A DNA stretch of 36,537 nucleotides from Patescibacteria group bacterium (GTDB lineage Bacteria > Patescibacteriota > Dojkabacteria > JAHIVN01), in NCBI GenBank assembly GCA_018816645.1, contig JAHIVN010000114.1:1-36537 (forward strand), read 5' to 3'. The position numbers and the translations under genes were made by a program. The notes under the pieces are model-generated. The model was not told where the DNA came from. It ran no database searches and was given only the letters and a program-made list of their open reading frames with translations. Of this stretch, positions 4,178 through 19,952 are shown one piece after another. Positions within the stretch are counted from its first letter, which is position 1. Every line of letters starts with the position of its first letter.

Positions 4178-4244
4178 ATTTTGGTCAATACTGTTCTTAA
4201 CTTTCTTAAAAGATGAGGACAAGTTACCAAGTCAGATTTCTGAG

Positions 4245-4270
4245 GAGGGGCTTTTTCCCCTCTTTTTTTT
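4245..4270 (+). terminator. Intrinsic terminator or attenuator between rpsJ and rplC
   Basis: GAGGGG (4245-4250) pairs perfectly with CCCCTC (4257-4262) around the loop CTTTTT, and eight T follow at 4263-4270. This is the clearest rho-independent terminator in the window. It should end the tuf-rpsJ transcript. Only 35 bases separate it from the rplC ATG with no good promoter in between, so it may act as an attenuator in the rplC leader. Confidence 0.75.
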
Positions 4271-5023: not shown

Positions 5024-5569
5024 ATGAAGACATTTGGAAAAGTTTTAGTAGCAATTCTAATAATTTTGTTTACAGCTCTTTTATATTTGTTTGTAAGAAC
5101 ATATCAGGATGTAAAGTACTCGGAAAAGTATATTGATTTTGTGACAAACTCAGCGAACAATATTTTGTCTGAGGTGGAGAAAATCAATGTTGACCTGAAT
5201 GCTCTTGAATATGATGAAACTGATAGTGATTTGACTTCGCTGCAGTCTGGACTGGAAGAACTGAAAAATCTTTCTAAAGATGTCCGGGATGAAGATGAAG
5301 AATATAAGGAAATTTACTCTGCGAATGGTGTGAATGAAGGACTCAACGAATTTTTGACTAGAACTGATAGTCTGATAAGCTCTCTTGAAGTACTCCTGAA
5401 TTCGATGGAGAATCTTGAAAAGAAGGATGATTTCGATAAGAAGCTAGAAACGTACATTGACGAGTCAGATAGCTTAGAAATCGAGTCGGCGGATTTGCAA
5501 ATTGAATTAAATACATATGTTGATAATTATTCTAAGTTTGATGTAGATAGAATTTTAAATGAAATTTGA
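5024..5569 (+). CDS. Membrane-anchored acidic coiled-coil protein inserted between rplC and rplD
   Basis: Function not recognised. The 181-residue protein has one N-terminal hydrophobic segment (about residues 7-25, LVAILIILFTALLYLFV) after a short positive start, then a strongly acidic, leucine-spaced helical region (about 30-175) that looks like coiled coil and should lie outside the membrane. No cysteine or catalytic motif is seen. It sits where L3 and L4 are normally adjacent, and its stop overlaps the rplD start by 11 bases (5559-5569), so it is co-transcribed and probably translationally coupled with L4. A membrane-tethering or stress-sensing role would be guesswork. The frame is open, codon use resembles the neighbours, and no mobile-element border is visible. 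Confidence 0.8.
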   Translation: MKTFGKVLVAILIILFTALLYLFVRTYQDVKYSEKYIDFVTNSANNILSEVEKINVDLNALEYDETDSDLTSLQSGLEELKNLSKDVRDEDEEYKEIYSANGVNEGLNEFLTRTDSLISSLEVLLNSMENLEKKDDFDKKLETYIDESDSLEIESADLQIELNTYVDNYSKFDVDRILNEI

Positions 5570-6440
5570 TCTCTATAACCAAAAAGGAAAAAAGCTTGAT
5601 CGAAAAGTTGATCTGGATGATACGGTATTTGTGTCAAATATAAACCGAGATTTGATGAACCTGGCAGTTTATGTCTACCTCTCAAATCAGAGGCAGTCAA
5701 ATGCAAATACCCAGACTCGTGGAGAAGCAAGAGGTGGGGGAGCAAAGCCTTGGAAACAGAAGGGTACTGGGAGAGCAAGACATGGATCAATCCGAAGTCC
5801 TATCTGGAAAGGCGGCGGAGTTGCATTTGGGCCGAGGAATAACAAAGTTTATAAAAAGACATTGAACAAGAAAATGAAAAAGGCTGCAATCAGGAGTTCG
5901 TTTTCTTTATTTGCAAAGAAGAAAGTTCTAACTGTGTTAGATAGTGTAGAAATTAATGGTGCGAAATTAACACAGCAGGTTTCTGAGATGAACTCCAAAC
6001 TTGCAAGAGGAAAAAAAGTTCTTTATATACATAACGGAGAGAATAGAAATCTATATTTGGGAAGTAGGAACCTACGAAATGTCGGGGTGATCCCAGTAAA
6101 TGAAGCAAATACCTATACACTTTTAAGTTACGACCATCTGGTTATTCTAGAAAATGTTTTGGATACGATATCAAAACTGTGGGCACACGCTCAAGTGTCG
6201 GAAAAAGGTAAGCCAAGAGAAGATGAAAAAGCTAATTTAGTAAAAACTAGAAAAAAGATTGTATCCAAGGAGAAAACCCTAAGTGAGATTGGCTTGACAA
6301 CCCGAATTGCAACTGTTCTTGAGAAACAGGGAATTAAATCACCAAAGGAACTGCAGGAGAGACTCGAGTCTGGGAAAAAGATAGATGGTATTGGTGCAAA
6401 AAGTGTGGAAGAAATTCAGAAAGTTTTAAAGATAAAATAA
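5559..6440 (+). CDS. rplD: 50S ribosomal protein L4 with C-terminal alpha-CTD-like HhH domain
   Basis: L4 lines part of the exit tunnel. Residues 1 to about 207 match L4, including RGEARGGGAKPWKQKGTGRA and FGPRNNKVYKKTLNKK. At 293 residues the protein is some 90 longer than E. coli L4 (201). The extra part is a charged linker (about 212-239) and a domain at 240-293 that resembles the DNA-binding C-terminal domain of the RNA polymerase alpha subunit. TTRIATVLEKQGIKSPKEL aligns with the helix carrying Arg265 (here R249), and GIGAKSVEEI with the GxKKSxxEI loop carrying Gly296, Lys298, Ser299 and Glu302 (here G279, K281, S282). It also resembles the CTD of this genome's own RpoA. It starts inside the preceding membrane-protein gene. 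Confidence 0.95.
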   Translation: MKFDLYNQKGKKLDRKVDLDDTVFVSNINRDLMNLAVYVYLSNQRQSNANTQTRGEARGGGAKPWKQKGTGRARHGSIRSPIWKGGGVAFGPRNNKVYKKTLNKKMKKAAIRSSFSLFAKKKVLTVLDSVEINGAKLTQQVSEMNSKLARGKKVLYIHNGENRNLYLGSRNLRNVGVIPVNEANTYTLLSYDHLVILENVLDTISKLWAHAQVSEKGKPREDEKANLVKTRKKIVSKEKTLSEIGLTTRIATVLEKQGIKSPKELQERLESGKKIDGIGAKSVEEIQKVLKIK

Positions 6441-6441
6441 A

Positions 6442-6744
6442 ATGGCTAAAAATTTAAAGTACGAAATCTTAATAAGACCTGTCCTAACTGAAAAAAGCCT
6501 AAAGCTCATAGAAGAGAAGAATCAATATGTTTTTGAGGTTGATCTTCGGGCGGGCAAGGCTCAAGTGAAGAAGGCAGTTGAGGAAAAGTTCAAGGTAAAG
6601 GTCCAGAAAATTAGAATTGTGAGAATAATTGGTAAGTCTGTGACTTGGGGAAGAAAAAGACTAAGTGGAAGAAGAAAGGATGTTAAGAAGGCCATTGTTA
6701 CTTTAGCAAGTTCAGATAGTATTGCTGATTTTAAAGTAGAATAA
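6442..6744 (+). CDS. rplW: 50S ribosomal protein L23
   Basis: L23 sits at the tunnel exit and docks trigger factor and SRP. The 100-residue protein shows the family signature: ILIRPVLTEKS at the start, then NQYVFEVDLRAGKAQVKKAVEEKF and the basic loop WGRKRLSGRRKDVKKAIV. The ATG lies one base after the rplD stop, so the two are probably translationally coupled. Length is normal. Confidence 0.96.
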   Translation: MAKNLKYEILIRPVLTEKSLKLIEEKNQYVFEVDLRAGKAQVKKAVEEKFKVKVQKIRIVRIIGKSVTWGRKRLSGRRKDVKKAIVTLASSDSIADFKVE

Positions 6745-19013: not shown

Positions 19014-19952
19014 ATGTTTGCAGTCGATAAATTTAAGTTCAAAGTTTTAGAGGAGAAAGAAGGTTTGGGTAAATATAGCTTTGGACCTTTTCCAAAGGGG
19101 TATGGGATCACTATAGGAAATGCGTTTAGAAGAATTCTTTTATCGAGTACTGAGGGAGCAGCTATTACAAGTGTTTCCGTTAAAGGAGCAAAACATGAGT
19201 ATTCGACTGTTCCAGGTGTTTTAGATGACGTTCTAAATATCATCCTGAAACTAAAACAGCTTGCTTTTAAGTGTTATAGTACTGAACCTCAAACTTTAGC
19301 GCTAGACGTAAAAGGTAAAAAGGTAGTAACGGGAAAAGATATAAAGCTGACAGCTGAAGTAGAGATAGCTAACCCAGAAATTGAAATAACAGAACTAACA
19401 GAAGCCTCAGCCAAGCTGAATATAGAAATCGTCGTTGAGCAGGGAGTAGGGTATCATGCTAGTGATGAGAGTAAGAGGAAGCAGATTGGAGTGATTCCGG
19501 TTGACTCAAATTTTTCTCCTGTAAAAAAGGTTGTTTTTGAGATCGAGAAAGCTAGAGTTGGTCAACAGACGGATCTAGATGAAATAATACTTACGATAAA
19601 AACAAACGGAGTTGTTGCTCCTAAAGATGTGCTAGATCAGGCGACAAACATCTACAATAAAGTTACATCTAGGCTTGTGACTGCAATCACGGGAGTAGCC
19701 GAAGAAGAACAGGTAGTAGAAGAGGCCTCTGAGAAGGATGAAGAAGAATCACTTAGTTCTGATTTGGACATAGACAAGTTGAACCTTTCAGCAAGACTAA
19801 CACATAGTCTTATAAAATCAGGGTACAAGAATCTGACTGATCTGGAAGGGAAGACAGTAGAAGAAATCATGGAAATCAGAGGGCTAGGGAAGAAGAGTGT
19901 CGAAGAACTGATAGACATTATGAAAAGTTATAAGTTAGATATTAAAGACTAG
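19014..19952 (+). CDS. rpoA: RNA polymerase alpha subunit
   Basis: Alpha dimerises to start polymerase assembly. The 312-residue protein has the N-terminal domain (FGPFPKGYGITIGNAFRRIL, LSSTEGAAITSV, TVPGVLDDVLNIILKLKQL, VEQGVGYHASDESKRKQIGV), a Glu-rich linker (about residues 225-250), and the CTD with LSARLTHSLIKSGYKNLTDL and IRGLGKKSVEELIDIM. In the CTD the Arg equivalent to E. coli Arg265 is kept, but Asn268 corresponds to His, so UP-element contacts may differ. The same fold seems to be appended to L4 in this window. Confidence 0.97.
   Translation: MFAVDKFKFKVLEEKEGLGKYSFGPFPKGYGITIGNAFRRILLSSTEGAAITSVSVKGAKHEYSTVPGVLDDVLNIILKLKQLAFKCYSTEPQTLALDVKGKKVVTGKDIKLTAEVEIANPEIEITELTEASAKLNIEIVVEQGVGYHASDESKRKQIGVIPVDSNFSPVKKVVFEIEKARVGQQTDLDEIILTIKTNGVVAPKDVLDQATNIYNKVTSRLVTAITGVAEEEQVVEEASEKDEEESLSSDLDIDKLNLSARLTHSLIKSGYKNLTDLEGKTVEEIMEIRGLGKKSVEELIDIMKSYKLDIKD

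Follow-up and report, generated by a model that had tools for sequence, protein, structure and literature searches.

A NusA-type module resembling the RNA polymerase alpha C-terminal domain at the end of ribosomal protein L4 in a family of Dojkabacteria

Background

Few ribosomal proteins are as conserved as L4, which in E. coli works together with NusA on the transcription of its own operon. The two proteins act at the S10 attenuator, a form of control confined to some gammaproteobacteria (PMC10931766), and it can therefore serve only as an analogy for Dojkabacteria. The globular domain of L4 lies on the surface of the 50S subunit and has a protein-binding interface at its C-terminal side (PMC10931766). 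On the transcription side, the AR2 domain of E. coli NusA is a recruitment platform for the RNA polymerase (RNAP) alpha-CTD, NusG-NTD and SuhB, and also masks KH1 (PMC7171158), while in Mycoplasma pneumoniae a flexible C-terminal extension of NusA touches ribosomal proteins in the expressome (PMC8116511). In E. coli the RNAP interface also includes ribosomal protein S2 (PMC6566652). We found little in the published literature on the contacts that couple transcription to translation in CPR bacteria, and a literature search with few subscription papers found no precedent for a fusion between L4 and an alpha-CTD. The protein described here, an L4 that ends in a NusA-type module with an alpha-CTD-like fold, is a variant without known published precedent.

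Results and discussion

The stretch of DNA that we analysed (36,537 nucleotides; the window) is part of a Dojkabacteria MAG. The L4 gene, the parts of its product and the gene used for comparison are the following.

5559-6440, + strand: rplD, ribosomal protein L4, 293 aa with an appended C-terminal module (open reading frame; PF00573 and PF03118)
5559-6173, + strand: L4 core, residues 1-205 (PF00573; AlphaFold model similar to ribosomal L4 chains)
6174-6278, + strand: Lys/Glu-rich linker, residues 206-240 (poor conservation; low pLDDT)
6279-6431, + strand: alpha-CTD-like (HhH)2 module of the NusA-type subfamily, residues 241-291 (PF03118, pLDDT, Foldseek, indel, tree)
19014-19952, + strand: rpoA with its own CTD (19731-19925), comparison gene (Pfam)

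The open reading frame encodes an L4 with the full domain above cut-offs, scoring 195.6 bits with PF00573 (Ribosomal_L4; cut-off 25.8) over residues 17-205 and 194.6 bits with the rplD model TIGR03953 (cut-off 130.1), and it has the expected S10 operon position before rplW. Since rplW starts at 6442, directly after the L4 frame, no frameshift or readthrough is required. Past the core, the protein continues for 88 residues; the earlier note had counted about 90, and the coordinates it gave for the domain, 6241-6440, are correct, with the folded part now delimited to 6279-6431. PF03118 (RNA_pol_A_CTD) matches residues 237-291 with 27.1 bits (cut-off 23.8, E 3.6e-6), and the tail searched alone reaches 31.1 bits. 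The L4 proteins of the two other genomes of the family give independent matches of 41.1 and 37.8 bits, which rules out chance. The best solved relative of the module is the Thermus alpha-CTD (1doq, E 1.1e-5), and a profile built from L4 and NusA modules finds the same structure at E 1.4e-13. Within the window's genome, RpoA and L4 are the only proteins matched by PF03118 (E up to 0.001).

An AlphaFold2 model of the full-length protein, built on 26 L4 sequences, resembles ribosomal L4 chains and has four helices at residues 241-290. The pLDDT of the module is about 93 (89-94), compared with about 50 over linker residues 211-240, where a weak helix (224-234) is predicted; modelled by itself, the module has a lower confidence (mean pLDDT 74). 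Foldseek searches with the module model rank alpha-CTDs first (probability 0.97-1.00, TM by target 0.78), with E-values near 0.1, as weak as one would expect for a domain of about 50 residues. The structure prediction thus returned the alpha-CTD fold and, along with the PF03118 score, bears out the fold proposed in the earlier note. We consider it confirmed that L4 ends in a folded alpha-CTD-like module and that the observation is real.

To see how widely the module occurs, we relied on MAGs for all counts, with a sample of three for the window's family. The L4 query matched in 78 of 86 genomes of the class Dojkabacteria, and PF03118 was found on L4 in all three genomes of the family, which represent two genera, and in 0 of the 75 other class genomes with an L4 match. 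Most of these other L4 proteins are 203-240 aa long, and the longer ones that were read have Lys-rich tails or extra length at the upstream end. Elsewhere in the phylum, none of 20 long L4s examined among about 150 L4 matches listed carries the module, the extra length being low-complexity tails or N-terminal sequence. A PF03118 search of 87 phylum-wide genomes gave, among the matches listed, no further one attributable to L4 by open reading frame length and position, and among 80 contig loci surveyed the L4 module is present only in L006, whose sequence is identical to the contig of genome G002. CPR L4s often end in long C-terminal tails, but with all 20 of the long L4s examined lacking the module we rejected the idea that it is simply a common CPR tail.

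The frequency of such tails does indicate that the L4 C-terminus tolerates additions, and together with the small sample of three MAGs it lends something to the view that the module was captured once by rplD and has been tolerated as a selectively neutral tail with no function of its own. The pattern of conservation argues otherwise. Whole L4 proteins are 49-58% identical across the two genera of the family; by region (n=3), identity is 56-65% in the core, 14-29% in the linker and 33-45% in the module. The difference between module and linker indicates that the module is constrained; its core residues are invariant in all three proteins, and reading frame and fold are intact. We regard a neutral tail as improbable. 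The linker, for its part, is variable and probably flexible.

The residues of the module were compared with the set through which the alpha-CTD contacts UP elements (R265, N268, G296, K298, S299, E302). As the earlier note had claimed, the equivalents of R265, G296, K298, S299 and E302 are present (R249, G279, K281, S282 and E285 of L4), and they are kept in all three family proteins, which would be compatible with a module that binds DNA in the manner of the alpha-CTD and makes L4 a DNA-contacting regulator. However, the sixth residue, absent from the note's list, is the one that differs. Asn268 of the alpha-CTD is important for UP-element binding, and its position is T, S or G in the three L4s while it is N in 42 of 49 RpoA modules; furthermore, several of the residues that L4 shares with the alpha-CTD are part of the HhH motif in general and also occur on S2 and NusA modules. 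Because Asn268 is not kept, we did not file the L4 module as a DNA-binding alpha-CTD, and DNA binding of this kind seems very unlikely. Of the earlier suggestion that the module binds nucleic acid or links L4 to transcription, the link stays plausible while UP-element-like DNA binding is disfavoured.

A role outside transcription, in which the module binds rRNA or a nearby ribosomal protein and so stabilises the 50S subunit or helps its assembly, is a less remote prospect and in our opinion the second candidate, possible if not probable. Nucleic acid binding is common among (HhH)2 domains, the equivalents of R265, K298 and S299 are kept, and the net charge of the L4 modules is +1 to +5, where RpoA modules average -1.2 and NusA modules 0. 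Dojkabacteria have also lost the ribosome-assembly factor der and nearly lost era and rbfA (PMC12641178). On the other hand, the module diverges faster than the rRNA-binding core of L4, the variability of the linker is easier to reconcile with a mobile domain than with a fixed contact to rRNA, and the nearest relatives of the module are found on a transcription factor.

This last point comes from comparison with the other modules of the class. The loss of one residue ahead of the second HhH, giving a 12-residue spacing, is shared by all three L4 modules and by 8 of 9 NusA modules, one of the eight (G043) being divergent with its gap one column off, and it is found in 0 of 49 RpoA and 0 of 35 S2 modules. 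Scored against profiles whose training sets contained no L4 module, the L4 modules gave 51-74 bits with NusA, 42-51 with S2 and 35-39 with class RpoA. In a 74-row tree they group with eight NusA modules at a support of 94/93, just under the threshold of 95, from 60 alignment columns. By itself such a short alignment makes the module tree weak evidence; indel and profile scores agree with it. In AU tests, neither the L4+NusA clade (p 0.479) nor a single L4 origin (p 0.273) was rejected. By these sequence comparisons the L4 module appears closest to the NusA-type subfamily, with the C-terminal NusA modules from other families of Dojkabacteria as nearest relatives, and not to the RpoA CTD of the window's genome.

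The earlier note had seen a resemblance to that RpoA CTD in particular. A partial duplication of the cell's own rpoA is suggested by the common fold and by the presence of rplD and rpoA in the same ribosomal gene cluster, but sequence comparisons speak against it: all 49 RpoA modules lack the deletion, profile scores are lowest with RpoA, and the AU test rejected a tree in which L4 is constrained with the family's own RpoA modules (p = 0.019), with a p of 0.059 for L4 placed with all class RpoA modules. The special likeness is not supported, and we give an origin from RpoA hardly any credence. A second RpoA CTD was considered as the donor and rejected, the long open reading frames matched in other genomes having proved on reading to be NusA and S2. 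In families f10-f12 (G032-G042) the PF03118 search of the genomes found no domain, so the RpoA CTD there is lost or too divergent.

Reading and Pfam searches found similar modules elsewhere in the class on RpoA, NusA, ribosomal protein S2 and FtsE; a hand tally by coordinates gave about 44 genomes with a module on S2, about 11 with one on NusA and 4 with one on FtsE. The S2 pattern is broader than the L4 case and we found no description of it in the literature: in many families of Dojkabacteria S2 ends in an alpha-CTD-like module that lies behind a long charged linker. Examples are L121 (1537-2688, - strand; the module scores 58.8 bits with PF03118), L125 and L133, and some 40 other genomes of the class have it as well. 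Four genomes of the class (L208:440-1687, L209, L211 and L232) have a weak alpha-CTD-like module at the C-terminus of FtsE, the cell-division ABC ATPase; one of the four belongs to the window's family (G001).

In the window's family, S2 is without the module, and so is NusA, which in the three family genomes and in G003, from the neighbouring family f2, has a Lys/Glu-rich tail at its end. We noted that the S2 and NusA proteins of the family end in long low-complexity tails rich in Lys, Ala and Glu (L203-L205, L164, L167 and L169). The analysis thus shows a family in which L4 has a NusA-type module while NusA itself has none. In a four-gene tree the family forms a single clade (100/100) that branches basally in a larger group (98/99), to which the families whose NusA carries the module also belong, and the families of that larger group other than the window's often have the NusA module. 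Given this basal position, the 60 columns and a support just under 95, it is as possible that the family's NusA never had the module as that it lost it, and the transfer could have gone in either direction. L4 may instead have received the module from another lineage.

Other features of the operon upstream of L4 were also recorded. A conserved RNA stem with internal loops is found between rpsJ and rplC (4179-4232), followed by an intrinsic terminator (4242-4270). The stem is present in the three family genomes (f1) and in G003 (f2), and a weak counterpart occupies the equivalent position in G004 (f3). No Rfam match was over the cut-off, and mimicry of 23S rRNA was discarded, the element having no convincing sense-strand likeness to the 23S rRNA of G002. 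The element (4179-4270) looks like a candidate ribosomal-protein attenuator within the S10 operon. Since G003 and G004 have the element without the L4 module, the two are not tied, and any link of the element to L4 is conjecture. Between rplC and rplD there is also an open reading frame of 181 aa (5024-5569) that overlaps the start of L4. Its product has a single hydrophobic segment on the N-terminal side and after it what is probably a coiled coil. It is conserved among the family members at 62% and 45%, and a frame of the same size lies at the equivalent place in G003 (L130:2965-3501). Pfam gave no confident match for it.

As to function, perhaps rplD acquired the module from a NusA gene, by relocation or by copying, and on L4 it would act as a tethered protein-docking domain, as AR2 of NusA does in E. 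coli. The transcription complex would in this way recruit free L4 or a nascent 50S subunit, which would serve either co-transcriptional assembly or an L4-dependent control of the L4 operon. By analogy, a tethered docking module seems the most likely role, ahead of rRNA binding, and we put it forward tentatively; the case for an AR2-like action is made from the fold of the module and from its position. Against the analogy, AR1 and AR2 of E. coli match the Dojkabacteria modules with 17 bits at best, and the L4 modules are slightly basic where the AR domains are acidic. With a NusA-type module on L4 and a NusA lacking it, the family looks like a case of natural domain relocation, one that points to a direct link between L4 and transcription. 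This suggests, and does not prove, a physical tie between RNA synthesis and protein synthesis in this family.

A broader and rather doubtful extension of the docking role is that one exchangeable docking module of alpha-CTD/NusA type is used on RpoA, NusA, S2 and here L4, so that the ribosome itself would bear an RNA-polymerase-type module and the job of the NusA module would have moved to L4. If true, the module would be used on both sides of the transcription-translation interface in Dojkabacteria. The modules on S2, NusA, FtsE and RpoA are candidate contact points for transcription-translation coupling in CPR bacteria.

Comparison with known systems

An extra C-terminal domain on L4 and S2 has been curated in NCBIfam, as NF051449 ("50S ribosomal protein L4, sunset domain variant") and NF051451 (S2). 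The window's L4 scores 155.9 bits with NF051449, where the cut-off is 385, and covers only positions 1-220 of its 285; the C-terminal sunset part is unmatched, and we rejected a sunset domain on this protein. The alpha-CTD of RNA polymerase (PF03118; 1doq, 1lb2) is similar to the L4 module in fold and in most hallmark residues, but the L4 module is without Asn268, belongs to another subfamily by indel and tree, and is attached to L4. Dojkabacteria S2 is, like L4, a ribosomal protein with a C-terminal PF03118 module, which differs in having the 13-residue spacing of RpoA and is not of NusA type. The AR1 and AR2 domains of E. coli NusA are, like the L4 module, tethered C-terminal helical domains, and AR2 is a docking platform (PMC7171158); they differ in being acidic, in being carried by NusA and in matching weakly in sequence. 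The C-terminal (HhH)2 modules of Dojkabacteria NusA belong to the same subfamily as the L4 module, have the same deletion and are likewise placed at the C-terminus behind a charged linker, but their host is a transcription factor, whereas here it is a ribosomal protein.
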